Assembly (NCBI GenBank): GCA_003963305.1
Contig: RXJR01000004.1
Coordinates: 1-60,511 of the forward strand
Reading direction: 5' to 3'
Origin: Candidatus Melainabacteria bacterium
Lineage (GTDB): Bacteria > Cyanobacteriota > Vampirovibrionia > Obscuribacterales > Obscuribacteraceae
DNA: 60,511 nucleotides
In this document: positions 1 to 16,357 of the stretch, piece after piece
Numbering within the stretch: position 1 is the first letter of the stretch
Layout: each line of letters opens with the position of its first letter
The notes under the pieces: generated by a model
Told to the model about the DNA's origin: nothing
The model's database searches: none
What the model saw: only the letters and a program-made list of their open reading frames with translations
Program-made: the position numbers and the translations under genes

Positions 1-191
1 TTCAGTGGCCGCGATTACCGATGTGAGTGGCCGTCAAGTGTGTTCTCGATGGCCGCCTGTTCTCGTTGCGGGTGGTCGCCCTGGCGCGAAATTCACAGAC
101 AGAGTTTCGGATTTTTCTGCGTGGACTCTGATCGCGCGCTGCGAAAGGGGTTCCTAGCGCATACGATTGTAATCCTATACGATGTGAGTGG
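1..191. repeat. Periodic GTGGCCG short repeats, possible IS21-type element end
   Basis: GTGGCCG or a one-base variant recurs at 5-11, 27-33, 49-55 (ATGGCCG) and 72-78 (GTGGTCG), a regular 22-23 bp spacing of about two helical turns. A 12-mer CGATGTGAGTGG at 19-30 recurs at 180-191. Regularly spaced internal repeats near the end are typical of IS21-family insertion sequences, where they bind the transposase; assigning this family is inference from memory. No istA/istB gene is visible, so the rest of the element, if any, lies left of the window. Confidence 0.35.
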
Positions 192-532
192 ATCATCATA
201 GCGAGCTTTAGATGCACAACCAGGGTGATGACGTGACGCCTGACTCTGTAAAACGTCTCAAATCAGTGACCTACTGCGCTCTTTTGTTGTTGACTCCATC
301 CGGGATAATGTGCACGGGAAAGGTGATAGCGCTGTCTGCGATGATAATGCCAAAGACCCTTGGGAACTTCGAATCGACTGCAGTTCCAGTATTTTAAATT
401 GGAACGAATTTTTCTATCTTCCTTCAAAAAATTACAAAGCCCAGGAAGGCGGTTTGGTGTAAAAGCACGGCGATTGGGCCGATTACCACGAATAACCCCT
501 CGGCCACGCCTGACAAAAGTTCTGATCCTTAC
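192..532. other. Intergenic stretch without a supportable gene
   Basis: Open frames here are short, lack a ribosome binding site and do not resemble any protein family I recognise. The segment lies inside the presumed integrated element, between the GTGGCCG repeats and the 3' end of the integrase gene. I see no tRNA, hairpin terminator or repeat in it. Confidence 0.4.
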
Positions 533-1732
533 TCAAAACAAACGTGCGTCATCGACGTCAAGTTCGGTGTACTTCCGTATTTGAGTTTCTGCGCTCTCCA
601 TGCCAAGTCTCACCGGGTCATGCATAAGCTTGGTGTAGATTTCAGTCGACGCCATAGACTTGTGTCCTAACGCTTGGCTAATGATCTTTATGTTTTGATT
701 GCTCATTGCCATATAGCTTCCTAATGTCCGACGCAAATCATGCAATCTCAAATCTGTTATTCCAGCTTTCTTTAGCATCCGCCGCCAGGCTTTCATCGGT
801 TCAACAAGATGGGAGCCCGGTTTCTTCCCTGGAAATACCCAAATGTTTGTGCGTGCTTCCCAACGTCGTCGAAGTAGATCCATAGCAGAAGAGGTCAACG
901 GCACATAATGAGATTCCTTGTTTTTGGTTTTCGGAATTCTCCAAACCGCGAGCTGAAAGTTGATATCCTCCCAGCGCATCTCAAGCACGTTAGTTCGTCG
1001 TGCGCCCGTGTACAGACTGATTAAAACGTAGTCCTGGAATGTCTCATCTTCTTGCTTCAGCGCCGCGAAGAACGCGTTCATTTCGTTGGGCATAAGGAAA
1101 CGTTCGCGCGGTTGGATCTTGTTCTGTTTTACGCCCGACCATGGGTTAGTCTCAATGACTCCATTCCGTATGTTCCAGTTCAGAGCCGCTCTCATCAAAA
1201 TCAGTAAATGATTTGCCGCCATCGGTCCGTTTTTCTGTCTCACTGCATTGAAGCGCGAAAGAACATCAAGTTTCGTAATTGAGGTATGTGGTCGGTTTCG
1301 CCAATCCCACACGTATCGCTTAAAGTCCTTGCGCATCTCTTCATGTCTTATGCAATGAATTGCAGCATGATTACTTATATACAGCTCAAACAACTCGTAG
1401 ACAGTTGGAATTTTAGGCGCTTCAACGGGGTCGGTGCACATCAGCGACTCTTGCAGTCGTTTTTCCGTTGGCAAGATCAAGCTTTCGTTCGCGATGTTGA
1501 AGAGAACTTCGCTAGCCTTCTTTCGAGCTTGCTCAATGCTCATCTCAGGATAACGGCCAATGTACACGCGAAGTCCTTGCCCCTTAACTTTGCGCCGCAC
1601 GTAAAACGACAGATTCTTGGTGCTGCGTCTGACTGTTAAATTCCTAATTTGTTCGTCGTAAAATTCAGCCTGGTCTGGTGACTTTGTTATTTCATCCAGC
1701 CTCTTCTGTGTGAAATTGAATCGCTTAGCCAT
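533..1732 (-). CDS. Tyrosine recombinase (integrase), P4-type
   Basis: A 399-residue site-specific recombinase that would catalyse integration and excision of the element to its left. The N-terminal ~90 residues resemble the arm-DNA-binding domain of P4-type integrases (DUF4102-like; RRSTKNLSFYVRRKVKGQG region). A core-binding SAM-like domain spans ~105-200. The C-terminal catalytic domain shows TGARRTNVLEMRW (first catalytic Arg), HDLRRTLGSYMA (the H-x-x-R box), then GHKSMASTEIYTKL with the box-III His and the nucleophile Tyr. All catalytic positions are present, so it is likely active. The ATG at 1732 has a weak GGGG-type ribosome site. It lies about 250 bp from a tRNA-Thr 3' half at 1980-2021 and reads away from it, the usual arrangement for an integrase beside its att site. 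Confidence 0.93.
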   Translation of the reverse strand: MAKRFNFTQKRLDEITKSPDQAEFYDEQIRNLTVRRSTKNLSFYVRRKVKGQGLRVYIGRYPEMSIEQARKKASEVLFNIANESLILPTEKRLQESLMCTDPVEAPKIPTVYELFELYISNHAAIHCIRHEEMRKDFKRYVWDWRNRPHTSITKLDVLSRFNAVRQKNGPMAANHLLILMRAALNWNIRNGVIETNPWSGVKQNKIQPRERFLMPNEMNAFFAALKQEDETFQDYVLISLYTGARRTNVLEMRWEDINFQLAVWRIPKTKNKESHYVPLTSSAMDLLRRRWEARTNIWVFPGKKPGSHLVEPMKAWRRMLKKAGITDLRLHDLRRTLGSYMAMSNQNIKIISQALGHKSMASTEIYTKLMHDPVRLGMESAETQIRKYTELDVDDARLF

Positions 1733-1830
1733 GATGCTTGCCCCGCATTGCTACACCACGAGATGTTCAATGGTGCCGAAAGAATAATGATGGAGCTGGA
1801 ATGTTTGACTGAAGTATGCGAAAGTTGTTC

Positions 1831-1849
1831 AGGACACTAAGAGGACACT
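1831..1849. repeat. Direct repeat AGGACACT x2, candidate integrase arm sites
   Basis: AGGACACT occurs at 1831-1838 and 1842-1849, an 11-bp period (one helical turn) in the same orientation. The pair lies between the integrase start (1732) and the tRNA-derived att core (1980). Tyrosine recombinases of temperate elements bind short direct repeats in this interval with their N-terminal domain. The repeat is directly seen; its role is inferred from position. Confidence 0.4.
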
Positions 1850-1979
1850 TTGTACAGAAAATTTCATCAATCAAGAGTGAATTTGATAAACATTAGAATC
1901 CAGCCCTAAAGCCAGTCTACACCGAAGAGTCGCAAATAAGCAACGTCTCCAGATGTCACCATATACGATACTAGTATTT

Positions 1980-2021
1980 TTCGTAAACCGTAGGTCAGGG
2001 GTTCGAATCCCCTCATCGGCT
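1980..2021 (+). tRNA. 3' half of tRNA-Thr(CGU): integration (att) scar, not a full tRNA
   Basis: The segment fits the 3' half of a tRNA: loop bases TT at 1980-1981, anticodon CGT at 1982-1984 (reads ACG, Thr), AA, 3' anticodon stem ACCGT (1987-1991), variable loop AGGTC, T-stem AGGGG / loop TTCGAAT / CCCCT, acceptor strand CATCGGC and discriminator T at 2021. The bases upstream (TAGTATT) cannot pair with ACCGT, and no GCCGATG 5' acceptor strand lies upstream, so the homology starts within the anticodon loop. This is what remains of the original 3' end after an element integrated at the anticodon loop and brought its own copy. The intact tRNA-Thr(CGU) is expected left of the window, at the element's other end. 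Confidence 0.8.
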
Positions 2022-2270
2022 AGGTTTTTAACAATCAGAGCCGGCTAATGCCCACAGGCGAACTCACTATGGCGACAAGGATGTCGCAGTGTGAACCAAA
2101 CTGTGTATCCTCGAGAACCTTGCAAGCATCAAACAATGAGGACATGATCCCCCAAGCAGGTCGAAGCCATTTATCGACGCTGGTAAAATGCTCAATCCCA
2201 GAGATCGCAGCTCGTGGACGTTGCCAAAACCTGAAAACTGTAAGTGATGGACGCCTGTTCGGCTAGTCCT

Positions 2271-2624
2271 TTAATTCCCAACACTTTTGCTTTTCGCAAC
2301 CGGCACCCTGCTATTCCGCATAGTTTCTAAAAGTTGACGTGGTCTGTTCAATGCTTGATTTAACTGCATCTTGTCTTGTGCAGTCAGCACATCCGCGTGC
2401 TGCTCTTTCAGTTTTCGCTTTAATTTACTAAACTCTTTCATCTCTTTATCAAGCTGTGCCGCCTGTTTTGCGGTGATTTCGCCTTGGTTTTTTGCGACAT
2501 TCACTTCACTCAAAAACTCTAATTGTTGTTCATCAATTTGATCAGCAATGGCATAAGTTGAAGAGCCAAGTAAAAACAGAGCGCACACAATCGCCTGGTA
2601 GTTGTATTTGTTTGTCATTGTCAT
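2271..2624 (-). CDS. Small exported coiled-coil protein, unknown
   Basis: A 117-residue protein with a plausible signal peptide: short polar N-terminus, hydrophobic core AIVCALFLLGSSTYA, then a likely cleavage site at AIA-DQ. The mature part is highly charged and helical (EFLSEVNVAKNQGEITAKQ..., LDKEMKEFSKLKRKLKEQ), so a short periplasmic coiled coil is likely. It has no Cys and no recognisable family. Two in-frame ATGs (2624 and 2618) are possible starts, and the ribosome binding site is weak. It is the first gene right of the att junction, so it probably belongs to the original chromosome. Function unknown. Confidence 0.55.
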   Translation of the reverse strand: MTMTNKYNYQAIVCALFLLGSSTYAIADQIDEQQLEFLSEVNVAKNQGEITAKQAAQLDKEMKEFSKLKRKLKEQHADVLTAQDKMQLNQALNRPRQLLETMRNSRVPVAKSKSVGN

Positions 2625-3180
2625 TCTCGATAATCGTCTCTAGTGTAGTCATTTTTTGGTGGCATTCACATGTTTTTGCAGAAAAATTGAAAACTACAAT
2701 TCAGCACATGCTTGCAAAAGTGCACCAATGCGAGCCTTTTGCGTCTTAGCCACTTGTGAGCGTGTGGGATCTTGATGAGTGCCAATGTCGTTTGCGCACA
2801 ATAAATGTGAACAAAGTTTAGAACCAAAACTCTGGCAAAACTCTCCGACTAGCCTAACGCAAAAGCTCAAATTATGTGTGCAATGTTCGTGTAGGCACGA
2901 AGATCACAAATTGCCTTCTTTTTCCCTCAAAAACGGACTTGCGATGCAGTTTTCGAACGTTCACTGTTGCTCAGATTAGATAAAAAGTGACTGTAAATAT
3001 TGCTCCTTTCCCTATAAACACCAGTAAACCTCGCACAAGCAGCAAAACTCTCGGAATGTGATAGGGACCACACTAGTTGGCCGGTGAATCGCATTTAAAA
3101 TTGGCTGTTAGCCGGCCAAAAACGATGCGAATATGTACCCGAAAGCTTTTCGGAACAACATCCGAATCATGTGAGGGGTA
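2625..3180. other. 556-bp gap, no gene supported
   Basis: AT-rich, with several 60-90 codon open frames that lack ribosome sites and do not look protein-like. I see no promoter, terminator or repeat that I would defend. The segment from about 3063 to 3180 may hold shredded remains of the gene whose last codons follow at 3181. Confidence 0.3.
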
Positions 3181-3306
3181 ATATTGGGAGCTGAAAAGTT
3201 TTACGCAAAGCGTGGAATTACTTTCAAGAGTACTGCCATCTACTGGGACGAAGATGGCCATGTGCCAGGTGTTAAAAGCAAATTCAAGGTTTGGGGAAAT
3301 CAGTGA
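3181..3306 (+). pseudogene. Probable C-terminal remnant of a toxin/secreted protein, coupled to the immunity gene
   Basis: From 3181 the frame reads about 41 protein-like codons (ILGAEKFYAKRGITFKSTAI, then YWDEDGHVPGVKSKFKVWGNQ) to a TGA at 3304-3306; an in-frame stop lies just upstream at 3172-3174. The stop overlaps the ATG of the SMI1/KNR4 gene (TGATG), the junction expected between a polymorphic toxin tip and its immunity gene. It may be the surviving end of a toxin whose body was lost. Alternatively a TTG at 3184 preceded by GAGGGG five bases upstream could start a 40-residue protein. Toxin identity is inference; no toxin fold is recognised. Confidence 0.45.
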
Positions 3307-3893
3307 TGAATGATGCTTTATCGAATCTAGTTTCGACACTCCAGCAGTGGGAGTGGGTTACAGAAGAGCAATTACTTGGATGCACTAATGAAGAGATAGC
3401 AGCATTGGAAGAACAATTTGCAGTGTCGCTTCCGGTCACGTACAAAGAGTTTCTTACAGTAATGGGAAAAGGTGCTGGACGTTTTGAGCGAGATGCTTCC
3501 TGGAAATATCATGCACTGAAACATGCCAGGGAGGAAGCGGAACACCTTCTTGCCGACATAGAGAGAATAAGAGGAGAAGAAGAAGAGGAACAAGATAACG
3601 ACGAAAACGCTGACAGTACAGATGCGTCTCCCAAAACCCTAAAGCCGCTCGTTCCTCTTAAACCAACGGATTTTGTCTTTTTGTGCGGCAGCTATAACTT
3701 CTTGTACTTCGATACCACAAAAGGTGACAACCCGCCGGTCCAATTGATTGAAGAATCTGAGGATGAGCCCAACACAACGTTTCCCTCATTCACCAATTGG
3801 CTCGAAGTCGTCGCACATTATGTCGCAAGAAACAGCAAAATTCTGAAAGACAGAAAAGCTGAATTGAAAGCGATGGGGATTGGTGGGGATTGA
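3306..3893 (+). CDS. SMI1/KNR4 family protein (candidate toxin-immunity protein)
   Basis: A 195-residue cytoplasmic protein with the SMI1/KNR4 core in its first ~65 residues: WVTEEQLLGCTNEEIAALEEQF followed by SLPVTYKEFLTVMGKGAG. A C-terminal half carries an acidic linker (EEEEEQDNDENADS) and the FVFLCGSYNFLYFDTTKGDNPP strand region. This superfamily is a common immunity-protein fold paired with nuclease and other contact-dependent toxins. I start it at the ATG at 3306, which overlaps the preceding stop in TGATG and has GGGG ten bases upstream; a TTG at 3291 is an alternative. With no intact toxin upstream, it is probably an orphan immunity gene. Family assignment is fairly sure, the immunity role is inferred. 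Confidence 0.8.
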   Translation: MNDALSNLVSTLQQWEWVTEEQLLGCTNEEIAALEEQFAVSLPVTYKEFLTVMGKGAGRFERDASWKYHALKHAREEAEHLLADIERIRGEEEEEQDNDENADSTDASPKTLKPLVPLKPTDFVFLCGSYNFLYFDTTKGDNPPVQLIEESEDEPNTTFPSFTNWLEVVAHYVARNSKILKDRKAELKAMGIGGD

Positions 3894-4236
3894 CCAAAAA
3901 TGACGTCACTGCATAGAAGTTGGCCAGAAAGCAATTCTGGAATGTTTCCGCCTGGTCCTTGAGAGCACTGAAAAATGCACTAAATTCTGAACCGCCGAAA
4001 TCTTAGAATCGCTCCCGTCGAACTTTCATTTAAGTCCACGTTGCTCATTCAATACTTGCTAGACCATTAACTAGCAGGAGTGCGGAGAAACTCAAAATAA
4101 GGAACTTGTATTTCATAGACAGGCAACTTAAATAATCGCATTATGTGCCCTAACTCAATATTTTCCATCCTGACTCAAAATAGACTAATAGCCAAGAACC
4201 CATCTCAAAATCATGGCACATAAGTAGGGTGCCTTT
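3894..4236. other. 343-bp gap with one very weak small ORF
   Basis: Nothing firm. On the minus strand 4067-4168 encodes 33 residues beginning MENIELGHIM and ending FLRTPAS; its ATG has only AGG directly abutting, so I do not call it. No terminator-like hairpin was seen between the convergent neighbours. Confidence 0.25.
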
Positions 4237-4860
4237 TCAGATGGCGCTTTGCCGCAACGGATCTTCGCAATCCACGTCTTTCTCTACGAACTTCTTGTCG
4301 AGTGCATCAACTCCAAATTTGATTTTGTATTCGCGTTCAGCTTTCGTTATTGGTATCAGCCACAAAAAATGGACTTTCTTTTTTTCTATATTTGCCCATT
4401 GAACCTTGGCACCCTCCATCGTCGACAAAATGCCATAATCGCATCGAGATCCTGGTAACCATGGCCTTCCGAAATTGACTGTATGCCCACTGTCGAGATG
4501 TTCACCGGTCAAATGGAAGTGCGCAATAGCATAAAAGAGTTCGACTAATTCCGGCGCCTTCTTTGGCGAGATCAAGAACACTTCGATCGGTTTCGAGTCG
4601 CCAAATGACATGCCGCAAGTAGCGTATATCCATACTTTACTCTTGCTTCCAGGGGGGACTTCGAAGACGCAGAAATCGTTGGGTAACTGATGTACGGGAC
4701 CTTTGTCGAATTTTATTGCAGTAGCTGTGCTACCAAAGGCTGTCTCGTAATGCTTTTGAATTTCCAGCGAACGTGGTGACAACATGGCTTCAACTCGCAT
4801 AAATGTGGTACCGAAGGCCAAAAGAAAAAGACTAGTTAAAATCGCACGATTCAATAGCAC
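4237..4860 (-). CDS. Suppressor-of-fused (SUFU)-like domain protein with an N-terminal signal-like segment
   Basis: Residues ~34-190 read like the bacterial SUFU domain: HYETAFG start, PIEVFLISPKKAPELVELFYAIAHFH, GEHLDSGHTVNFGRPWLPGS, and the closing VHFLWLIPITKAEREY. SUFU-domain proteins are a known immunity superfamily of polymorphic toxin systems. The 207-residue frame from the GTG at 4860 (GGA ten bases upstream) adds a segment (AILTSLFLLAFGTTFMRVEA) that looks like a cleavable signal peptide. If the true start is the internal ATG at 4785, the protein is cytoplasmic like most relatives. I keep the long form because its ribosome site is no worse. It lies in the immunity-gene block; the partner toxin is not seen. 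Confidence 0.75.
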   Translation of the reverse strand: MLLNRAILTSLFLLAFGTTFMRVEAMLSPRSLEIQKHYETAFGSTATAIKFDKGPVHQLPNDFCVFEVPPGSKSKVWIYATCGMSFGDSKPIEVFLISPKKAPELVELFYAIAHFHLTGEHLDSGHTVNFGRPWLPGSRCDYGILSTMEGAKVQWANIEKKKVHFLWLIPITKAEREYKIKFGVDALDKKFVEKDVDCEDPLRQSAI

Positions 4861-4987
4861 TCTATAGTTCCACTTGCTGACATTTATACGGTACCAGCTT
4901 TTTTGAAGAAGCGCGACATATCGTCTGGGCGAAGAAAACGCTCCCGAGCCTGGTCAACCATCGATTGAGTGGATGAAATCTTTGCGG

Positions 4988-5398
4988 CTATTCTCCTAAC
5001 AACTCATATTGCCTGTCCGATGATGAGTATTTACTCTTCCGCAATTTGAGATATCCTTTTACGACGAGATCATCAAGTACAGTCTTCACGCTTCTTTCTG
5101 TATGCGAGCCCATAGAGCGAGACTCCATGAACCACTTGAGCCTCCAGGGAGTCAAAACTTTTACACCGGTAATAAATTCCTCGACGTCAACTTCAGTACC
5201 ATCGTTCTTGGATACGAATCTAACTCCTGTTCCGTGTCGATTAAACAACCAGTCTCCTCCGCGGAGGCGGATGCACCCTTGTGGAGGTATAGCCTTTGAT
5301 ATAAGCTTATCTGGGTCGGCCGCCGCAGGATATTCTGAAAACAGTTGCTTGAGAAGGGCTTCTTGTAACTCCAAGAATTCCCGCACAACTGGGACCAT
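4988..5398 (-). CDS. DUF6896-like protein, candidate immunity protein
   Basis: A protein of about 136 residues from the ATG at 5398 (GGAA just upstream); a TTG at 5419 would add seven residues. The N-terminal helix (VVREFLELQEALLKQLF) is followed by GGDWLFNRHGTGVRFVSKNDGTEVDV, whose R-H-G-x-G-V-x-F pattern I associate from memory with DUF6896, a family found near polymorphic toxins. The C-terminal third (TERSVKTVLDDLVVKGYLKL) is helical. It lies tandem with the SUFU-like gene on the same strand, about 130 bp upstream. No signal peptide or Cys-rich motif. The family call is moderate, the function unproven. Confidence 0.6.
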   Translation of the reverse strand: MVPVVREFLELQEALLKQLFSEYPAAADPDKLISKAIPPQGCIRLRGGDWLFNRHGTGVRFVSKNDGTEVDVEEFITGVKVLTPWRLKWFMESRSMGSHTERSVKTVLDDLVVKGYLKLRKSKYSSSDRQYELLGE

Positions 5399-5531
5399 GC
5401 TTTCCAATTCTAAGTGCAATTATCGTCCACCCACATAAAACAAACTCTAACACTACCAAAAACCATGAATCATTATCTTTTCAAACTTAGGAAAGCGACA
5501 TCCTATCTAAATTTCACCCAGACCAAAACTT

Positions 5532-6050
5532 TCAGGTGTTGAAAGGGAAATAAATCGTATTCCAAATATCAAAAACGTTTGTTATACACGCGTCAGTACA
5601 AAGAACTGCATTCGGAGCGTCTTTCCCACCGAATGGTATTAAGACGACAAGAAGAAAACATGGGTCATTTTTATCAACTCTCAAAAGATTCGCTCGTTGT
5701 TCCGCGGTTACAGCTCTTGCCTGCGCCTGCGAATTCTTCTGTGAATCATCATTCAAATATCGCAACTTCCTCAGCGTTTCCAGATTTATCATTGATAGGT
5801 TTGCAGGATCAATATCAACTGACAGCACGTAAAAATAAAAGCTGTGTCTGCTGAAGTAGTCTCGACTCTTCTCTAACAGCGATTCGTTCTCTATAAGGAA
5901 CAGTCCGTGAGATTTGCAGAGCAATTGAATTTCCCGCAAAATCTTGTCAAAACACTTAGATTCAATTTTTTGATACAACAACCAGTCAACGTCCTGATAG
6001 CGAATATTTGATTTCGCGTGCGCGATCAACGGATCTGATTCGGTTGACAT
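5532..6050 (-). CDS. Hypothetical protein in the immunity block
   Basis: A 172-residue soluble protein starting at an ATG at 6050 with no clear ribosome site. It has alternating helices and strands: DWLLYQKIESKCFDKILREIQLL, a FYFYVLSVDIDP strand, and a hydrophobic C-terminal strand CFLLVVLIPFGGKDAP. No signal peptide or known motif. I do not recognise the family. Its size, strand and place between candidate immunity genes suggest a similar role, but that is guilt by association. Confidence 0.55.
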   Translation of the reverse strand: MSTESDPLIAHAKSNIRYQDVDWLLYQKIESKCFDKILREIQLLCKSHGLFLIENESLLEKSRDYFSRHSFYFYVLSVDIDPANLSMINLETLRKLRYLNDDSQKNSQAQARAVTAEQRANLLRVDKNDPCFLLVVLIPFGGKDAPNAVLCTDACITNVFDIWNTIYFPFNT

Positions 6051-6279
6051 GGATCAATACACATCCAATGGCGCTATGACATCAGCATAACACGTTTGTT
6101 TTCCGGTCATCGTTGCGCTTCCGCTTAGGGCTCGAGTCTCGTGCCATCAATAACTCAAAAATAGTTTTTCAGCTGATCTTCACTAAAAAGTCAGTAGAAC
6201 AGTGGCAGCTGTACAGAGAAAACCAATGCCACTAATGGACTTCTCAAAATTCCATAAAATCAAAGACAGGAAGCAAAAA

Positions 6280-7074
6280 CTATAATTTAAGGGTCTTTAT
6301 TCCTTTGTCGCTTTTTAGCAATGCGTAAGAGTCTTCGAGCTCACTTATCTTTTCCAATCCTCTTATTTCAGTTAGGACTACCTGCGGTTTTACATAGCAT
6401 CTTATGTTAATTACGAAATGACCATTTTCAAAAAAGTGATCCGCCACAAACCCATACTCTGAACTCTGTAGCAATTCATCTAACTGGTCCTGCAACCGGA
6501 CAAGATACAACCGTCCAACATCCGTATTTAACTCGTCAGATAATTTACAGTGTAGTTCAATTTCTGGTAATTGCTTTTGCGGTTTGCGATTAAAAGTTAA
6601 CTCGTCCATCCTTAAAATAGCCTGAGTCAGCAACTCTCTTTGCTTAAGAGCCATATTTGGCAATAGTTCTAACAATGGGCGTGAATTCAACTTTAATGTT
6701 CGACAAACGTGCAGAGCCATTATAAATAGAGTTCTGGTGAGCAGCAGTTGAAGGTCTGATTGATTTAAACCCAACCAAGAATTTCTGCTTACCGGAAAGG
6801 TAATGCGCAATCCAAGTCCTTGAGCGTCACGTGCCTCTCGATAATGTATTGAAGGTAAATGGGCAAACACAGTGGAATCATCTTTTCCAGGAACGTAACC
6901 GTCTATCATGAAGTGAAAGCAAATGTTTTCATATTTAGTTTTATTCGAAAAATCGGTTGCTTCAAATGCTTCAAGAACTGGTTCAAACAGGGGTCCGCAG
7001 CTTAGGGCCGTTGTCATATTTTCGTCTGAGAATTCTGGCGTTGCAATTATTGTATACAGGTTGTCAAACTTCAT
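6280..7074 (-). CDS. Hypothetical protein A of a tandem paralogous pair
   Basis: 264 residues, clearly related to the neighbour at 7401-8192. Shared order: I-A/T-C-x-x-P near the N-terminus; a LEAFEATDFSNKTKY block; F-x-I-D-G-(Y/F)-x-P-G-K-(D/E)-D; a LP-x-I-H-Y block; V-C-R-x-L-x-L-N; LLELL; and a YNRK/TYNRR turn. The start is the ATG at 7074 with AGAGG six bases upstream. That ATG overlaps the stop of a weak upstream frame (ATGA). No signal peptide or membrane segment, and no family recognised. Tandem duplication of a medium-sized cytoplasmic protein is common in immunity loci. Confidence 0.65.
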   Translation of the reverse strand: MKFDNLYTIIATPEFSDENMTTALSCGPLFEPVLEAFEATDFSNKTKYENICFHFMIDGYVPGKDDSTVFAHLPSIHYREARDAQGLGLRITFPVSRNSWLGLNQSDLQLLLTRTLFIMALHVCRTLKLNSRPLLELLPNMALKQRELLTQAILRMDELTFNRKPQKQLPEIELHCKLSDELNTDVGRLYLVRLQDQLDELLQSSEYGFVADHFFENGHFVINIRCYVKPQVVLTEIRGLEKISELEDSYALLKSDKGIKTLKL

Positions 7075-7343
7075 ACAGGACCTCTGAGCGAAGGAGAGCG
7101 AGTACCCGGCGGAGCCGTGCTGATGTAGGTGTACGAAGGAATGGGACTCCTCAAGTTATTGCCATTAACAGGTGTGTTCGAAACCTGAAAAGCATATGCT
7201 CTCTTCCACGCAAAGTCTGGAGATTTCTTTGATGACACCAGACAAATGGAAACCTGCCAGCTAGCCTGAGGATTGTCGAACGGACACACAAAAGAAACAT
7301 GTAAATTGAAGAGTGAAATAGAATCATGCAACTGTGGATCCAC
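7071..7343 (-). CDS. Weak ORF ahead of paralogue A, possible remnant
   Basis: A 90-codon frame from a GTG at 7343. Its last part (VNGNNLRSPIPSYTYISTAP, then PGTRSPSLRGPV) looks somewhat protein-like, and its TGA overlaps the next ATG as ATGA, typical of translational coupling in toxin-immunity pairs. Against it: no ribosome site, a stop four codons upstream of the GTG, and an unconvincing N-terminal half. It could be the decayed end of a toxin gene or chance. Confidence 0.25.
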   Translation of the reverse strand: MDPQLHDSISLFNLHVSFVCPFDNPQASWQVSICLVSSKKSPDFAWKRAYAFQVSNTPVNGNNLRSPIPSYTYISTAPPGTRSPSLRGPV

Positions 7344-7400
7344 CGGAGTCTAATCAAACCGAGACGATTCGGCGCAAAAAACCTGTGCAACACGGGATAT

Positions 7401-8192
7401 CTACTTGATTTGAACTTTAGTATATTCCTTGGCGGTTATAAGGGTGGCCTGTACATTCTGCCATCCGGTCATCGGTAGGTCTTTTAAGGCAGTTAACGCC
7501 TTGTTCGGCGCGTCATAACAATTGCAAAATACGGTGAACACATTATTGCCCACCTCGTGCCCTTCCACATAACCGAGTCCTGTTGCCTGCAAATGTTCAT
7601 CAATGGCGTCTTCCAATCTCCAGGACGGTCGAGGATCCGTGTAATAATTCGTCGTCTCAGTCATCTCAAATTCTACTTCTAATTCATTTTTCTGTTTGGC
7701 AACACGTCTATTGTAAGTAAGAGTATCTAGATTGCGCAATTCCAGTTGAATTTTACGCCTGTCTACTTCATCAACCTGCGTTTCTAATAACTTGAGTAAT
7801 CCACGGTAATTGAGTCGCAAATATCGGCACGCATGTACACCGGCAAGAAACAACTTACAAAAAAACAAGTGCTCCAGTTGACTCGGAGCGGCAATGTCTA
7901 TCCAATCTTCTCTCTTGATTTTGAGGCTCACCCACAAAGCATTACCATTTTCAGTTCGACTCTCTTTATAGTGAATGTCTGGAAGATCATGAAAGACAGT
8001 GTCTTCTTTTCCTGGCGAGAAGCCGTCAATTTGAATAAAGAAATTGACAAAATTGTATTTAGTCCTTTGAGCAAAGTCACTTAATTCAAAGGCGTCTAGA
8101 ATGCGATTAAGGCTTGGTTTCGCTGCAAATTCAAATGCTTTCCAAGTTGGTTCAGCGCAAGTGACGATATTATATTGTGTTTTTTCTGCCAC
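7401..8192 (-). CDS. Hypothetical protein B of a tandem paralogous pair
   Basis: 263 residues from a GTG at 8192 preceded by TAGGA nine bases upstream. Paralogue of 6280-7074, sharing the ILDAFELSDFAQRTKY, FIQIDGFSPGKEDTVF and DIHYKES blocks, the ACRYLRLNYRGLLKLLE helix and the TYNRR turn. The C-terminal third (WRLEDAIDEHLQATGLGYVEGHEVG) is the most divergent between the two. Cytoplasmic, no known motif. The stop of a decayed upstream frame lies only 11 bp before its start, so it was once the distal gene of a two-gene unit. Function unknown, immunity role suspected. Confidence 0.65.
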   Translation of the reverse strand: MAEKTQYNIVTCAEPTWKAFEFAAKPSLNRILDAFELSDFAQRTKYNFVNFFIQIDGFSPGKEDTVFHDLPDIHYKESRTENGNALWVSLKIKREDWIDIAAPSQLEHLFFCKLFLAGVHACRYLRLNYRGLLKLLETQVDEVDRRKIQLELRNLDTLTYNRRVAKQKNELEVEFEMTETTNYYTDPRPSWRLEDAIDEHLQATGLGYVEGHEVGNNVFTVFCNCYDAPNKALTALKDLPMTGWQNVQATLITAKEYTKVQIK

Positions 8193-8203
8193 GATTCCAA
8201 ATC

Positions 8204-8540
8204 CTATAGTGAACCTAAGAACAGGGCAATGTAATCAGCATCATTCCTGCGCTCACGCATCAAATCTATCACTGCCAGCGCCTCATGCTGATCCCAGACA
8301 TTATGCTTCCGCACGAATTTTGGGAACAATAGCAATACTGATTGGCATTTATGATTCGCTCGTACGCTTTTATAGTGATCCAAAAATCCTTATACAATTT
8401 TATCAAATTCCTGAAACAGCGACAGATTCGACCATTAGGAGTAGAACTGAATCTTCGGTGTTTGTCCATGTGTCTACTTCTTGGGGGAAAGTCCAAATTC
8501 GGATTTGGACAGGCAGATCACATGTGCAAGAAAAGAACAT
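8204..8540 (-). pseudogene. Frameshifted remnant upstream of paralogue B
   Basis: Three protein-like stretches follow each other on the minus strand in different frames: CDLPVQIRIWTFPQEVDTWT onward (start near the ATG at 8540), then NLIKLYKDFWITIKAYERII, then FVRKHNVWDQHEALAVIDLM running to ALFLGSL and a TAG at 8204-8206. The final stretch is convincing coding sequence and ends 11 bp before the next gene. Simplest reading: a gene with at least two frameshifts. The long plus-strand frame over the same DNA (8101-8709) is then a shadow. The family is not recognised. Confidence 0.45.
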
Positions 8541-8786
8541 TTTAGGCTATGTAGAACACAAAGCATTAATACTAAACATCAGGTATGCCAAATACGTACC
8601 TAAAAGCTTAAGCAAAAGAAAATTGAGTTCAACTGTCGATCTGAAAGTTCGACTTAGCGATGCGAAACAAGGAAAGCGCGGCGAAGCACAGTTTGCACTT
8701 CGCAGTTAAACAAGCGCTATATCATCCTCACCGGCATAAATGACTATTCTCGTAGCAGCTTTTATTGCCTGTCCCAAGATGTAAAT
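8541..8786. other. Gap with possible further remnant
   Basis: The minus strand from about 8700 to 8556 is open and ends in a hydrophobic run (LNFLLLKLLGTYLAYLMF) but has no start signal. It may be the front of the decayed gene that continues at 8540, or noncoding. Confidence 0.2.
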
Positions 8787-9374
8787 TCAACTCGAAGAGG
8801 TTGGTGTGTCCAATGAATGTTTGTCTTTGTCCTTTGACCTGTTTTTAAAAGCGTCCGCCAGATAACGCAATGTCTTTTGATGCTCAATCTCTGCCTCAAC
8901 GAAATTATCAAACTGCGGATTATAAATAACCTCTTCTGTTGGCAGGAATTCAAGAACTGGCTCATCGCCGGCAGGGGACGGCTCGAAGTTGCCTGTCAAC
9001 AGAATCCTTTTCTGTAGAAAGAGCGCCAACCGCTTCAGTAAGGCTAAAAGATTTTCTATTGATTCTGAGGTCTGGTAATCACACGGCTCGATAAAAATTC
9101 TTATCTCATTCGACAAGTGGAAATACATACGAAATTCTAGTCCAGCGATTTCACAAATAATCACCGCACCGGATCCGACCAAATTACTCACCCAGGCTTC
9201 CGTTATCTCCGTTGGTAAGTCTTTGAGGGCTCCGGATCCCAATTGCAGCGTAATTGAATCCGCTCGATCTTGAAAAAAATGTACGGACTGTTTGAAATCT
9301 GAATCCGTAACGTGTGGAATACGCAACATCCGCACGTCACGGTCGTCAATGAAAATTGAACTGTACTTGTGCAT
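8787..9374 (-). CDS. Hypothetical protein in the immunity block
   Basis: 195 residues from the ATG at 9374. Soluble, with alternating strands and helices: DSITLQLGSGALKDLPTEI, VIICEIAGLEFRMYFHLS and ENLLALLKRLALFLQKRIL, then a charged Ser/Lys-rich tail. The layout (a short strand-rich domain with an acidic loop) is like small immunity proteins, but I recognise no family. A duplicated 17-bp sequence lies just upstream (9394-9427). The start lacks a clear ribosome site. Confidence 0.55.
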   Translation of the reverse strand: MHKYSSIFIDDRDVRMLRIPHVTDSDFKQSVHFFQDRADSITLQLGSGALKDLPTEITEAWVSNLVGSGAVIICEIAGLEFRMYFHLSNEIRIFIEPCDYQTSESIENLLALLKRLALFLQKRILLTGNFEPSPAGDEPVLEFLPTEEVIYNPQFDNFVEAEIEHQKTLRYLADAFKNRSKDKDKHSLDTPTSSS

Positions 9375-9393
9375 GAAATATGCTACTTGCGAG

Positions 9394-9427
9394 CCGAAAT
9401 AGGTGTGGGGCTGAAATAGGTGTGGAA
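9394..9427. repeat. 17-bp tandem direct repeat upstream of the 9374 start
   Basis: GAAATAGGTGTGG occurs from 9396 and again from 9413, each preceded by C/T-rich CCG or CTG, giving a 17-bp period. It sits 20-55 bp upstream of the minus-strand gene starting at 9374, where an operator or promoter element would be. Seen directly; role unknown. Confidence 0.4.
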
Positions 9428-9583
9428 CCGGATTATGATTAAATCATATTACACCCAAACTACCACAGTCTTCCTTTCCACTGAGAGATTGTCTGAAAGA
9501 TCTGAAAGTGTCTCAAATACATACATCAACGGCTTTGTCGTACTACAAAAAATGATTTCGAACTGATACCGCCAAAAGAAAGT

Positions 9584-9614
9584 ACCCACGAACGCCTCTT
9601 AGGTGTTCGTAGGT
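9584..9614 (-). terminator. Stem-loop, possible terminator of the EF-Tu-domain-like gene
   Basis: ACGAACGCCT (9588-9597), loop CTT, AGGTGTTCGT (9601-9610) form a 10-bp stem with one G-T pair; ACC/GGT extends it by three pairs across a mismatch. Reading on the minus strand, a T-rich run (ACTTTCTTTT) follows within a few bases. It lies about 70 bp past the stop at 9681. Confidence 0.5.
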
Positions 9615-9680
9615 TCAATGGAAATTCGAATTCTCTCCTTCATTAACAAGAGTGCCGTATTTGAACTCCTAATTGAAAAT

Positions 9681-9968
9681 CTAACTATTACACTGATCAA
9701 CTGAGCCAGTAACGACAATCCTAGGGCCTTCCGTAAAATGAAAAGTAGAGTGTACTCTCAACTTTTTTGCAACTTGATCAGGGCTAAGAAATTCTATTTT
9801 TACACCAGAGCGCGTATCTCCGGGATAAATCAAACCGCCGCTGAATGTCACATAACAGTCCCAATGTTCGTTTTCAATCAACATTGGACACTGATATCCA
9901 CTTTTGATTGGTCCTCTTCTTCCGCCTTTCGCTACGAGAGTAATGGTAGCTATTATCGAAAACATCAT
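9681..9968 (-). CDS. Isolated EF-Tu domain-3-like protein
   Basis: A 95-residue protein matching the order of motifs in the third domain of elongation factor Tu: G-G-R-x-x-P-I-x-S-G-Y (GGRRGPIKSGYQCPML), a YVTFSGG strand, P-G-D-T, a V-x-I-E-F-L-S-P-D strand, F-H-F-T-E-G-P-R and V-V-T-G-S-V. In EF-Tu this beta-barrel contacts tRNA and EF-Ts. Here it stands alone with no GTPase domain; free-standing copies are known in various bacteria, usually without assigned function. I start at the ATG at 9968, six bases after GGAG; an ATG at 9980 would add four residues. In an immunity-gene block, a decoy against EF-Tu-binding toxins is conceivable but speculative. Confidence 0.7.
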   Translation of the reverse strand: MMFSIIATITLVAKGGRRGPIKSGYQCPMLIENEHWDCYVTFSGGLIYPGDTRSGVKIEFLSPDQVAKKLRVHSTFHFTEGPRIVVTGSVDQCNS

Positions 9969-9995
9969 TTCATTCTCCATTCGCTAATATGAAGC

Positions 9996-10331
9996 TTACG
10001 GGAGCGGCGAATTATTATAGATCTTTGGAATCAATCCAACCAGATCTTCACCTTCAACATAAATCGTCTGTATTACCGAATTCCACGTGTCATGCCATCC
10101 ATACGATGCAAAGTCACCTATGAAGAGGCGAGCATCAGTACGATGTGCAATTCAACAACTTGCAGCCTAAACTCACAATAGAACCTAGTGCGAAGACAGC
10201 AATTGTTATCCGCCAAAACTTAAGACAGCATTACTTATGACACGTAGTGAAAATAAGTCGATGTTTTCGTAATTAATTCGTCTGACGACGAATGCAGTTA
10301 GAGCCAGAAAACCGCTCAGGACAACGGACAC
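9996..10331 (-). pseudogene. Frameshifted remnant of a membrane-associated protein
   Basis: On the minus strand three coding-like pieces follow in different frames: VSVVLSGFLALTAFVV plus RRINYENIDLFSLRVIS from a GTG at 10331; WRITIAVFALGSIVSLGC; then IGDFASYGWHDTWNSVIQTI and YVEGEDLVGLIPKIYNNSPL ending at TAA 9996-9998. The last piece is convincing and stops 15 or 27 bp before the two candidate starts of the EF-Tu-domain-like gene, as in an operon. Two hydrophobic segments suggest an inner-membrane N-terminal part. Probably a gene broken by frameshifts; family unknown. Confidence 0.4.
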
Positions 10332-10506
10332 AAAGAAAAACTGTTACTGGACAGATCGACGCGATCGCGATTGAGTAACTCTTTTAAAATTGCATCGTGG
10401 TTTCATACAAGATCAATTTTCAATTCAGTAAGAGTGAACGAGGCGGAAATGGCTGCCACCAAATGACATGTCACCTTAATCTACAACTGAGGTATGATCC
10501 CGAACA

Positions 10507-10520
10507 GGGGGAACACCCCC
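10507..10520 (+). promoter_or_regulatory. GC-rich hairpin in the leader of the ABM-domain gene
   Basis: GGGGG-AACA-CCCCC forms a perfect five-pair stem 20 bp upstream of the ATG at 10540. No T run follows, so it is not an intrinsic terminator; it could influence translation or message stability. Confidence 0.3.
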
Positions 10521-10539
10521 ATGCAGTGGGTAGGATTGA

Positions 10540-10851
10540 ATGTTTGCGGTCATATACAACTTTAAAGTGCGGCAGGGACAAGAGCAAGAGTTTGAACTGG
10601 CTTGGTGCAAACGCACGGAAGAAATAAAAAATACATACGGAGGACTCGGGTCACGGTTGCACCGGGCTTCGGATGGCAGATGGATTGCTTACGCGCAATG
10701 GCCGAGCCGTGAGCGCTGGGTGGCAGCCAGCAAGGACGCAGGAGAAACCACCGAAGCCCAGCTAGCCATGCGTGCAGCTTGTGAATCTGTGGAAACGCTT
10801 TTTGAACTGGACGTGAGAAAAGACCTTTTGACAAAACATGTTTCGGAATAA
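10540..10851 (+). CDS. ABM-fold (antibiotic biosynthesis monooxygenase-like) protein
   Basis: A 103-residue single-domain protein. The opening MFAVIYNFKVRQGQEQEFEL is the beta-strand/helix start of the dimeric alpha/beta-barrel ABM fold. GSRLHRASDGRWIAYAQWPS is the central hairpin, with the common L-x-x-x-x-x-G-x-(F/W)-x-x-x-x-x-W pattern. Members act as cofactor-less monooxygenases or as binding proteins; no substrate can be read here. TAGG lies six bases before the ATG. It stands alone between the immunity block and a large TPR gene, with no operon partner. Confidence 0.75.
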   Translation: MFAVIYNFKVRQGQEQEFELAWCKRTEEIKNTYGGLGSRLHRASDGRWIAYAQWPSRERWVAASKDAGETTEAQLAMRAACESVETLFELDVRKDLLTKHVSE

Positions 10852-11141
10852 CAGCGAACTACAATGCTAAGCTAGGCATTTCGACACTGATGAGCTTGAT
10901 TATTTCTTGCCCCGAAGTTACTTATATTCGACACACTTTGTTCTATAAGTTCGTCTGACAAGACTAAAACCAGAGCACACGTTGATGAAGGGCGCGGACG
11001 GTATAACTCTAGCGAAAGCGCATAGGGTATAAACAATGTAGAACAGCAGTTGGCACCGCAGCTACTAGCTATGAACGGTGTATGCAAATTGCTGAAAATA
11101 ATCACACCGCTTGCCTGGAAAAATGCTCAAAGGATTCCGTC

Positions 11142-14100
11142 GTGTATCTCAGTTCAGCCAGCAGACGACTAAAATGCACGCTGGTGTTGAGCCTGATCGC
11201 CTCATCAATAACACGCTGCGCAGCCGCCGAACCAGCACTCGACAGGCGGATTGTCGACTCACCCTATTTCACGCAACTGGTTGCGCCTGAGCACTGGGAC
11301 CCGACCACACCATTGCCTACAGATTCCGAGCAACTCCACCAGCGAGGGTGCGCCACTGGATTCGACGTGAACCGATTTAGAGCGGCAAACTTGGCCAATA
11401 GCAGACACTTTGCAGAAGCGATCCAAGAATGGTCAACAGAAATCGAAAAACTGCGAACAGTGAGCTCCTTTCTCGATAGAGATGAGGCCTTTGCCTTAAT
11501 AGAAAGAGCCAGGCTTTATCAGCATATCGGGCTAAAATCTGAAGCGTTAGCTGACGTCCAGGAGGCGTCTCAGCTAACGAATTTGGACGAAGCATGTCGA
11601 CTGAGGCTAGCATTGCTCTCGATAGAGTTAGGAGAAAATCGCTTAGCTGAAGTGTTAATGTCGAAAGTGGGAGACCTCTCCAACTCACACCATAAGCCCA
11701 TTCATAAATATGTTTTAGCAGTGGCGCAGGAAAAAAATGGAGAAGTAGCCACGGCAGTAAATTCGTTCATGGACGCAGCCAAGCTGTTTGCTATCGACGG
11801 TTCGACCGCCTGTGCACAGGCGTGTATTGATGCGGCATCCGGTCTCGATACAGGTAGCAGACATACCAAAATTACAATCCACGACTTGGCGCCACCGATG
11901 TCAAATCACAAGAGAACTCTCCATCTTCTTGAAGCCTTAGCTTCACGCAACGACATTTTTGAAACAGGTGTATTGGAAGAGCTGTGGTCGGCCGTCGGTA
12001 AGGAAGGTACCAGCAGAAAACAAACTTTGTCGAAACATCAAGCAGCTCGCGATTCTAATGAAGTGCCAAAGCCTGAAATCGAAAAACTGGCTAATGGACA
12101 GCGAATTTCGATGTGGCTCAAACCAGAAGTTTGTGTTCTGACCAGCGCTGAACTGGAACATCTGTTGGGTAAACCACTTCCTGAGTACGATGAGAAACAC
12201 ACGGAATATCGAGGCTCCAAAGTTTACAAAGTACCCGCAGGCTTGCTGGTGCTGGTCTCGAGAGTGGGCGGCTTCAACGCAATATGGTTGGCGCAAGTTT
12301 ATTCTGCCGACACGGTCTATCCGCAACCCAGGCAACCAATACCATTTTTTTCAGCCGAGTATCTAAACGACCCGTTCTTTAGGACATCTCTTGCTCGCGC
12401 TGGCCAAAATAGTTTAAAGGTCTATGCGGGCCTCATTGAGGATACTCTTAAGAAAGATCCAACCAATGTGCAAGCACTGACTTACAAAGCCGAAATCGCA
12501 GCGAAACAACACGACCTCGAGCAGGCTGTAACTGCAATAAATCAAGCAATAAAATTACAATCCGCACAATCGAAAAATGCTACTCAGATCAGCGCAGACA
12601 CTGGTAATCAACTTCTAATGGACAAGGGTAATTATCTTCTGGAGCAGAAAAAATTTGCGGAAGCTTTGACTATTTTTGAACAAGCCTTTCCGAAAGAGCC
12701 AGAAGCAGATCAACTCTATCAGAGGGCGAAAGCAGAGATCGGAGTTGGGCAGTATGAATCTGCCAGAAAAGATTTATCCGAGGCCGTTGACAGATATTTT
12801 TTCTGGGGACGCATTAGTCGCAGAGACGAGGCACGCAAACTACTCGCTGACATAAGCGCACTCGTAAAAGATCACGCTGCTGCAGAGGCAGTAGTCACGA
12901 CACAATCAGAAATTATTGAAAGTGAGCGCAATAAAGCAAAAGAATTTAGGGAACAGGTAAACGCTGCGAGTCGGCTGAAAAATGAAGAGACGCTGCACCG
13001 CCAACAATACTTGATAAACGAAAGATGCAAGGATGTACTGATCGCCATGTCGAAGGGTGCGAACAAACCGCTAAAGTTGACTGAGGCATTGGTCGACTTC
13101 GCAAGAACCGCTACCGAGATGAAGCAGCTGTCGGCGGCCAGAGCGTCACTCGATAGAGCGATACAAGCATATTGCAGCTACGGCCCAATTTCAGAATATG
13201 ACGACTGCACGGTCTCTCTGATAAAACAATTGGTCATATTTCCAGATGCAGAAATAGGAGAACGTTTGCGCAAAGTTGCGACGCGTTCTGAACCATTCTG
13301 CGACGACGGAAACTTTCGAGAAAATCATGACAGTGCTTTTAAAGATCTCATCATGCAGTATCGCGAAGATCACCAAATCGCTTTACTGCGAATAATGATT
13401 GATATCCGAGAACGGCAATCAAAAGGTCCGAAAAACTCTTCAAAGATTTGGCAGGACAGGCTTAAGTACGTTGAAACAGAATGCGCCAAACATCCAACCA
13501 ACGTCTTAAGACCGAACTCGTGGAGCGCAAGAGAACATAGATACACTAACCGCGTCATTCCCGGAATCTCTGAAAACTTTGATGCATCGCTCAATGCAAT
13601 TTCCGAAATGGAGCGCCTGATACATCAGATGGACAGCAATTCAGAACGCAATACGAGCCTGATAGCAGATTGGAAGACTTTTGTTCTTAGACTAAACTGC
13701 GGACCAGAACTAAAGCAAATGCTGCGATTTGCCGGTTGCCTTGCGATTGCGAACGGCTATCTGCAGAAATCAGCGCCAAAACTAGCCGCTGACAGCATTC
13801 ATGAAGGTGTGAACAATCTACTTGATACAGATCTTGATTGCCTTACAAACAGCCTGGCGGGTTTACGCTCAGCCGCAGAACTGAATCATGATTTTGTGCT
13901 TGCTGAATTAGCCTACGAGCAAGCACTGGATAAGCTCGCCGCCGCTGAGACGATCAAGCCAACCACAATGTTGGAATTGAAACTCAGTCTTGCAGAGCTT
14001 CTTATGAATCATGCAAGAGCTTTGTCAGATCAAGAAAAAGCTCGCGAATATCGAGAGCGAGCCGCAAAGCTTTTTGACGAATGTGAATCAAATCAGTTTG

Positions 14101-14813
14101 ATAAAGATACGCTGCCAGAATCATATTCAAAGACGAAGATGGCAGTGAGGCGAATGATTGCCATGAAATACCCGGCATTGCAGAAATTAGACCTGCCCCA
14201 GGGCGAAATAATATACCTGGAAACTGACGCCAATAAGGAAGTTGTAAATTATATAGAGATTGGATCGCGAAAAATAATTGGGAGAGGACCGGGCGAAATA
14301 ACTTTAGGCCGTACAATCGAAATTCTCGTTGATGGGCGAACTTTAGACGAAAAAAGTTTTGAGCAATTGGATGCCGGTAATCTCGCGGAAGCAGAAAAAA
14401 TTCTCATCGCAGCGCTGAGAGCGAAGCCTACGGCTGCGACGTTTGCGATGCTTGGCGAGTGCTGGTTTTTGAAAAATGAAAAAAGCAGTGCGTTGCAGGC
14501 GTGTCTGATGGCACTGGACTTGGACAGGCGCAACGCACTGGCGATAACGCTGAAGCACCTAATCCGAGGCGAGGCGAGAACTGACAAAACTGAAACACTT
14601 ACACTGCGGGCAGCATTGGCAAAAAACTCGAAAGAGAGTGCGGTGACTCAGGCATTATGCTTGGTGGCACTTCACAAAAACATGCAGGCACGACAGATTT
14701 TGATGCAGTATCTGCGGAAGCAGCCAAAATCTTACTTAGCAAAACGGCTAATACGCACCTTGAGGTTAAGACCACTCAGCAGCCGGCCACAGCGAGCAAA
14801 ACTTACGCCGTAA
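11142..14813 (+). CDS. Large exported TPR protein
   Basis: 1,223 residues from a GTG at 11142 preceded by AAAGGA seven bases upstream; a longer frame opens at an ATG at 11082 but lacks a ribosome site and would bury the signal peptide. The N-terminus (RRLKCTLVLSLIASSITRCAAA) is a typical signal peptide. TPR-like helical pairs occur around residues 50-190 and 425-560 (LKKDPTNVQALTYKAEIAAK and neighbours) and again near the C-terminus (RAKPTAATFAMLGECWFLKN). Between them are long charged helical stretches. Probably a periplasmic or envelope-bound scaffold. Its 3' end overlaps the convergent citrate synthase gene by 11 bp, with no room for a separate terminator. Confidence 0.85.
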   Translation: MYLSSASRRLKCTLVLSLIASSITRCAAAEPALDRRIVDSPYFTQLVAPEHWDPTTPLPTDSEQLHQRGCATGFDVNRFRAANLANSRHFAEAIQEWSTEIEKLRTVSSFLDRDEAFALIERARLYQHIGLKSEALADVQEASQLTNLDEACRLRLALLSIELGENRLAEVLMSKVGDLSNSHHKPIHKYVLAVAQEKNGEVATAVNSFMDAAKLFAIDGSTACAQACIDAASGLDTGSRHTKITIHDLAPPMSNHKRTLHLLEALASRNDIFETGVLEELWSAVGKEGTSRKQTLSKHQAARDSNEVPKPEIEKLANGQRISMWLKPEVCVLTSAELEHLLGKPLPEYDEKHTEYRGSKVYKVPAGLLVLVSRVGGFNAIWLAQVYSADTVYPQPRQPIPFFSAEYLNDPFFRTSLARAGQNSLKVYAGLIEDTLKKDPTNVQALTYKAEIAAKQHDLEQAVTAINQAIKLQSAQSKNATQISADTGNQLLMDKGNYLLEQKKFAEALTIFEQAFPKEPEADQLYQRAKAEIGVGQYESARKDLSEAVDRYFFWGRISRRDEARKLLADISALVKDHAAAEAVVTTQSEIIESERNKAKEFREQVNAASRLKNEETLHRQQYLINERCKDVLIAMSKGANKPLKLTEALVDFARTATEMKQLSAARASLDRAIQAYCSYGPISEYDDCTVSLIKQLVIFPDAEIGERLRKVATRSEPFCDDGNFRENHDSAFKDLIMQYREDHQIALLRIMIDIRERQSKGPKNSSKIWQDRLKYVETECAKHPTNVLRPNSWSAREHRYTNRVIPGISENFDASLNAISEMERLIHQMDSNSERNTSLIADWKTFVLRLNCGPELKQMLRFAGCLAIANGYLQKSAPKLAADSIHEGVNNLLDTDLDCLTNSLAGLRSAAELNHDFVLAELAYEQALDKLAAAETIKPTTMLELKLSLAELLMNHARALSDQEKAREYRERAAKLFDECESNQFDKDTLPESYSKTKMAVRRMIAMKYPALQKLDLPQGEIIYLETDANKEVVNYIEIGSRKIIGRGPGEITLGRTIEILVDGRTLDEKSFEQLDAGNLAEAEKILIAALRAKPTAATFAMLGECWFLKNEKSSALQACLMALDLDRRNALAITLKHLIRGEARTDKTETLTLRAALAKNSKESAVTQALCLVALHKNMQARQILMQYLRKQPKSYLAKRLIRTLRLRPLSSRPQRAKLTP

Positions 14814-16104
14814 CAGACGTTTTCCGTTTTTCCATCGGCACGTACGGACGCTCTTCAGAACCGGTGTAAATCTGTCTCGGGCGTGCGATCTTTTGATCGT
14901 CGTCAAGCAGCATTTCTTCCCACTGCGCCAACCAACCTGGCATCCGACCCAGGGCAAAGAGCACTGTGAAGTAATCAGTAGGATAACCCATTGCTTGATA
15001 AATCAAACCTGAGTAGAAATCGACATTGGGGTACAACTTGCGCGAGACAAAATAATCCTCCTCCAGAGCAATGCGCTCCAATTCAAGAGCGATTTTGAGC
15101 TTTGGATTGAGACCGGTTTGATCGAACACCTCATCAGCGATTTGTTTAATCAACTTTGCGCGCGGGTCGTATGACTTGTAGACGCGATGCCCAAAGCCCA
15201 TGAGGAGTCTTTTCCCTTCCTTGACTTCCTTAATGAAGTTTGGAACATTCTGAACCGAACCGATTTCATCGAGCATTTTGATCACCGCTTCATTGGCGCC
15301 CCCATGCAGAGGACCGTAAAGCGCCGCAATACCGGCAGAAACAGCGGAAAACAGATCCACATGCGAGGAGCCGACGGCGCGCACTGCACTGGTGGAACAA
15401 TTCTGCTCGTGATCGGCATGCAGCACGAACAAAACTTCCAGAGCCCGCTGCAACACTGGGTTTGGTTTGTGGCGCCCGCCAATGCTAAAAGTCATGTTGA
15501 CGAAGTTACCAACATAATCAAGATCGTTGTCAGGAAAAACAAATGGAAGCCCGCGTGAGTGGCGAAATGAAAATGCTGCAATCGTAGGTGCCTTTGCCAG
15601 GAGGCGCACCCGTTGCAAATAGCGGTTTTCTGGATCACGAATGTTCTTGGCGTCTGGATAGAACGTAGATAGAGCACTAACAGTACTGAGCATCATCCCC
15701 ATGGGATGCGCGTCATAGCGGAAGCCCTCCAGGAACTTGGTAATGTTCGTGTGTACGTAAGTGTGAGTTTTGATCTCATCAGTCCAGCGATCGAACTGCT
15801 TCTGGTCCGGGAGTGCGCCTTGATTGAGCAAGTAGGCAACTTCAAGAAAGCTAGCCTTCTCAGCCAGTTGCTCAATCGGATAACCTCTATAGCGCAAAAT
15901 GCCGCGCTCGCCGTCGATGAAAGTAATTGAGCTGCGGCAGGCAGCAGTACTCATGAAGGATGGGTCGTAAGTCATAAGCCCGAAATCCTCGGCATCGACT
16001 TTGATTTGCCTGAGGTCGTTAGCCCGGATAGTGTTGTCAGTTATCGCCAACTCATATTTTCGCCCCGTACGATTGTCGGTAATTGTCAGCGTTTCATTAT
16101 TCAC
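14803..16104 (-). CDS. gltA: Citrate synthase, type II
   Basis: 433 residues; condenses oxaloacetate and acetyl-CoA to citrate at the entry of the TCA cycle, in the cytoplasm. The catalytic His of LHADHEQN, the second His of GFGHRVYK and the Asp of PNVDFYSGL are all present. FSIGGRHKPNP and LHGGANEAV are standard substrate-site blocks. The N-terminal region (TITDNRTGRKYELAI) is the small domain typical of the hexameric, NADH-sensitive type II enzymes. I start at the GTG at 16104 because AGAGGA lies six bases upstream; the frame extends to a GTG at 16134 with no signal. Convergent with the TPR gene. No other TCA gene is adjacent. Confidence 0.97.
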   Translation of the reverse strand: MNNETLTITDNRTGRKYELAITDNTIRANDLRQIKVDAEDFGLMTYDPSFMSTAACRSSITFIDGERGILRYRGYPIEQLAEKASFLEVAYLLNQGALPDQKQFDRWTDEIKTHTYVHTNITKFLEGFRYDAHPMGMMLSTVSALSTFYPDAKNIRDPENRYLQRVRLLAKAPTIAAFSFRHSRGLPFVFPDNDLDYVGNFVNMTFSIGGRHKPNPVLQRALEVLFVLHADHEQNCSTSAVRAVGSSHVDLFSAVSAGIAALYGPLHGGANEAVIKMLDEIGSVQNVPNFIKEVKEGKRLLMGFGHRVYKSYDPRAKLIKQIADEVFDQTGLNPKLKIALELERIALEEDYFVSRKLYPNVDFYSGLIYQAMGYPTDYFTVLFALGRMPGWLAQWEEMLLDDDQKIARPRQIYTGSEERPYVPMEKRKTSVTA

Positions 16105-16357
16105 AGGCCGTCCTCTAAAAGACATCGATAACACATGGGAAGTATAGCAACACTCAAAGCCATCTTTTCGCTCGCAAAGCTGCTCGGATTGTAGCTTAAT
16201 ATCCTTAAGCAGATAGCTGTCTAGGTTTCTTACTGGAACGAATTCTGGGGAGCAGGGCAGGGTAGCATCTTTGAAGCCGTTTATCGTGAAGCGGAGAAAG
16301 CGCCTGTTTACTTCCGATTTTTAGTCTAGATTTTGAGTATATTCCTGCGGTTTCAGC

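Follow-up and report, generated by a model that had tools for sequence, protein, structure and literature searches.

The left end of this DNA raises the question of why half of a tRNA gene stands beside an integrase gene. The window, which is the whole stretch analysed (60,511 nucleotides, C4:1-60511), comes from a genome of 7.48 Mb in 44 contigs. The host is an uncultured, non-photosynthetic relative of cyanobacteria from the Obscuribacterales lineage, for which a search of open papers turned up no work on tRNA-integrated islands. A preliminary description took the half tRNA to be the right attachment site (attR) of an element inserted at the anticodon loop. The follow-up analysis bears this out, and the fragment is very probably the attR junction of an integrative element inserted in tRNA-Thr(CGU). 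The features at this end of the window are collected in Table 1.

Table 1. Features of the probable attR junction and the adjoining element end in the window.
Feature	Coordinates	Strand	Basis
Probable right end of integrated element, remainder beyond C4 start	1..1978		Integrase position and orientation as in complete relatives
Tyrosine recombinase (integrase), 399 aa, reads away from tRNA fragment into element	533..1732	-	PF00589, PF13356, alignment
Direct repeat AGGACACT, 11-bp spacing, putative integrase arm-type sites	1831..1849	+	Repeat search; binding predicted
Displaced tRNA-Thr(CGU) 3' half, anticodon loop to discriminator base, probable attR core	1979..2021	+	43/43 against C9 intact tRNA
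Anticodon loop TTCGTAA, 7 bases, putative strand-exchange (overlap) segment	1980..1986	+	Homology starts here, as in other tRNA-Thr(CGU) halves

The fragment matches the genome's own tRNA-Thr(CGU) at positions 31-73 without a mismatch (E 5e-17), and an exact identity of 43 bases is not a chance product. As had been proposed, the homology runs from the anticodon loop, whose first base is 1980, to the discriminator base. The T one base ahead of the loop (position 31, window 1979) is probably a chance match, since the core common to the relatives begins at position 32. This start places the insertion at the anticodon loop and not at the T loop or the 3' end. ARAGORN found no complete tRNA in the window, and the 5' half is therefore absent, as the preliminary description also held. 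An exact search of a public genome collection with the 44-bp core gave no match outside the source genome. The sole intact tRNA-Thr(CGU) found in the genome is at C9:141811-141883 on the minus strand. An intact copy had been expected on the flanking contig, and it was found on a different one; such a copy elsewhere had been listed as evidence against an attR, whereas under the model it is what should stand at the opposite end of the element or of an array. With flanking bases included, window 1979-2029 is 96% identical to C9, and window 1976-2029 is 96% identical to C14:1042-1095.

The integrase gene lies inside the presumed element, and its frame is full length. It has the domains Phage_integrase (PF00589, 2.7e-28) and Arm-DNA-bind_3 (PF13356, 2.4e-7), and in an alignment with three relatives the catalytic residues R, K, H-x-x-R, H and Y are conserved. 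It resembles the integrases with Arm-DNA-bind_3, a CP4/P4-like N-terminal domain, by its Pfam arm domain and, weakly, by a profile match to 3jtz, the structure of a CP4-like integrase domain. The 3'-end sublocation is the one associated with integrases of the P4 type; the group of the window integrase uses the anticodon loop instead. The integrase may bind the short direct repeats that lie between it and the tRNA fragment, and complete relatives have 11-bp repeats in the equivalent position. Similarity gives no support for a phage origin: named phage records have only distant integrase matches, and the best listed are 23-29% identical.

The complete arrangement is seen in relatives in which both ends are assembled. 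Their order is intact tRNA, element, integrase and 3' half; the integrase adjoins the 3' half and reads into the element, and the common core again begins at the anticodon loop. The restored tRNA and the downstream 3' fragment are on one replicon in the same orientation, while the C9 tRNA and the window are on contigs that are not joined. G027 has one element of 11.7 kb at tRNA-Thr(CGU), and G113 has one of about 10 kb at tRNA-Arg(UCG). G104 has two elements in tandem at tRNA-Arg(ACG); they measure about 28.5 and 36 kb, and each has an integrase and a half of its own. The junction in the window has the identical architecture. Lone 3' halves of tRNA-Thr(CGU), lacking the 5' half, are also present in G002, G008, G020 and G027. 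Close relatives yielded no empty site; the G001 contig ends within 36 bases of the tRNA. In G008 a stretch of 24.4 kb extends from an intact tRNA-Thr(CGU) to a 3' half (L049:9372-9444 to L050:13764-13806). Its genes include an outer-membrane efflux protein, a C39-peptidase ABC exporter, an AcrB-type protein and a ThcOx-like oxidase; the genes examined were mostly exporters and other cargo, and no relative of the window integrase was detected in the stretch.

A survey of related integrases suggests that the arrangement is common to the group. The relatives come from assemblies whose names include Candidatus Obscuribacterales and Melainabacteria, and the sample consisted of 76 non-duplicate loci, each retaining the integrase N-terminus and flanked on both sides by 400 bases or more. 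In 61 of the 76, the 600 bp upstream of the integrase match contain a tRNA T-arm on the strand opposite to it, a pattern that alone is no proof of a half tRNA at each locus; at a few of them the tRNA is intact. The distance from T-arm to integrase match has a median of 208 bp and a range of 154-501 bp. At the control positions the counts were zero upstream on the same strand, zero downstream on the opposite strand and one downstream on the same strand. Several tRNA identities are represented, and in the loci that were read the departure from the tRNA is at or near the anticodon loop. The layout of the assembled relatives and the T-arms at these loci thus support the attR reading. The window integrase group marks its own attachment site: about 150-500 bp upstream of the match to the integrase, a tRNA 3' half lies on the other strand. 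This rule is a simple way to find attR ends in fragmented metagenome assemblies. For the window, an exact element boundary has been obtained in an uncultured lineage and can be used as a boundary marker.

The proposed mechanism is that the tyrosine recombinase would cross over within the seven-base anticodon loop, where the exact points of strand cleavage would also be expected. The attP of the element would carry a copy of the tRNA 3' half, which would rebuild the gene at the far end (attL), and the 3' half present before insertion would be left stranded beside the integrase. The element would lie to the left of base 1979 and be cut off by the contig start. The preliminary description was right to place it on that side; its far end is beyond base 1, and leftward tracking stops there because the window opens contig C4. 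Besides the lack of an empty site in a close relative, two facts count against the reading. The attL and attR of this element are on no single contig, its left end being outside the assembly, and its arm-type match to either candidate left end is no better than in shuffled controls.

The surroundings of the intact tRNA on C9 point to an island at this gene. The genes on its 5' side are syntenic with many members of the family and its 3' side varies by genome, which on sequence comparison is as expected of an integration hotspot. In 10-kb bins of C9:1-141.8 kb the G+C content is mostly 0.455-0.493, apart from two bins at 0.531 and 0.506, and it is 0.50-0.51 on the 5' side of the tRNA. The same region, on a contig other than that of the window, carries a relaxase and a conjugative coupling protein, which together with type IV secretion genes would mark an integrative and conjugative element, and its last 20 kb have only scattered matches in two congeners. 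The lower G+C, these genes and the scattered matches fit an island located 3' of the tRNA. In addition, a second tRNA-Thr(CGU) 3' half, which the preliminary description did not include, is found at C14:1050-1092 and adjoins an integrase 59% identical to that of the window. The left ends of C14 and C9 are themselves 97% identical (L018:25-296 and L022:1-273); the shared sequence is probably an insertion-sequence transposase at which the assembly broke.

Arm-type repeats that are alike at both ends of an element may help to pair ends across contigs. The four known assembled pairs score 21, 20, 17 and 16 of 22 (the G104 elements 20 and 21) against a background of 13-16 in 25 shuffles. Two of them are clearly separated from the shuffles and a third is marginal, so that two to three of the four stand above background. 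The repeats 3' of the C9 tRNA agree with the integrase-side repeats of the C14 half at 21 of 22, also separated, and judged by these repeats the C14 half pairs with the intact C9 tRNA. Pairing of the window element was tried in the same way; it gave 14/22 with C9 and 15/22 with C14, not above the shuffles, and is not used as evidence.

These results suggest a refinement of the attR explanation, not a competitor to it. A multi-element array may occupy the single tRNA-Thr(CGU), beginning with the tRNA on C9, continuing with an element that ends at the C14 half and reaching the window element that ends at 1979-2021; its chances are about even. The genome has three copies of the 3' half, of which two adjoin related integrases in the same geometry, and the C9-C14 agreement is as high as in the G104 elements, where an array of two is assembled. 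The mostly low G+C and the conjugation genes to the left of the C9 tRNA also agree with it. On the other hand, the window repeats match the C14 3' side only within the shuffled range, no contig joins C9, C14 and C4, and about 142 kb of C9 plus other contigs would have to be included. Also, the part of C9 at 58.9-70.4 kb has homologues in G001:C2 to the right of two integrase-half junctions, and the end of that array is likewise outside the assembly. By exclusion, the window element could plausibly close an array at the C9 tRNA as its last member, and this tRNA would then form the left end of the array. A fuller version, in which two or more elements stand in tandem at the locus and span more than 140 kb, with conjugation genes and related integrases having differing arm-site repeats (GGGCCCC against the AGGACACT type), is put forward tentatively and has a little less than an even chance. 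If it is true, the elements could be excised independently, each by its own integrase.

Two further explanations would make the junction something other than the end of an intact element. It could be a relic in which the left end or the mobility has been lost and the integrase end alone remains. The element cannot be traced past base 1 and decayed integrase copies lie next door (3913-4017 and 4890-4952), yet the integrase frame is complete, its catalytic residues are conserved and all 43 bases of the fragment still agree with the tRNA, so a relic is unlikely and the element may still be mobile. It is far less probable that the fragment is an unrelated tRNA pseudogene beside the integrase by accident: nothing except the missing left end speaks for this, and the same arrangement at most of the related integrases, with many different tRNA identities, argues against it.

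As an attR, the junction belongs to an element of known kind, a tRNA-targeting integrative island with crossover in the anticodon loop; the finding is ordinary in kind and well supported. Integrases of the anticodon-loop (symmetric) sublocation, as reportedly classified by Williams in 2002, are said to use many tRNA identities within one subfamily. The group of the window integrase is like them in its probable crossover site and in its varied tRNA identities, and no difference from them was established. How well the anticodon loop suits an overlap of seven bases has been discussed (PMC8371274). The Islander tRNA-integrated islands are bounded by an intact tRNA and a displaced 3' fragment and have a tyrosine integrase inside (PMC4383910), and the window element is similar in having an exact displaced fragment of a tRNA present in the genome and in carrying an integrase of this type. 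It differs from them in that its far end is unassembled, so the interval from tRNA to fragment is not measurable, and in its host, an uncultured member of the Obscuribacterales. The principle of tRNA restoration, the anticodon class and tandem arrays have all been described for Islander islands, of which 2083 of 3919 are anticodon-centred and 125 are tandems of two or more (PMC4383910).

The DNA to the right of the junction was not covered by the preliminary description. Its G+C content is 0.436 over window 2022-12000, and it contains two remnants of integrases of the window group on the minus strand, at 4890-4952 (21 aa, 76%) and 3913-4017 (35 aa, 49%). The low G+C and the remnants show that this flank is not plain undisturbed core chromosome, and together with the gene content they suggest that an older, decayed insertion may lie there. 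Citrate synthase (14803-16134) was considered as a sign of ancestral chromosome shared with congeners; its protein is 95% identical to that of G001 and 85% to that of G003, but this is no proof, as a search of 24 family members found the gene in only 3 and synteny does not extend to its neighbours. A cluster of small genes at 3291-9374 includes SUKH (3291-3893), SUFU (4237-4860) and DUF6896 (4988-5419) genes and two paralogues (6280-7074 and 7401-8192). Because SUKH and SUFU proteins are known to confer immunity to polymorphic toxins, the cluster may be an array of immunity genes. Two repeats link the window with the other contigs. Window 10186-10280 (95 bp) is repeated with 97% identity at C9:57146-57240 and nowhere else in the genome, and a 46-bp repeat at 16215-16260 is common to C14:13832-13877 and C9:44899-44944.
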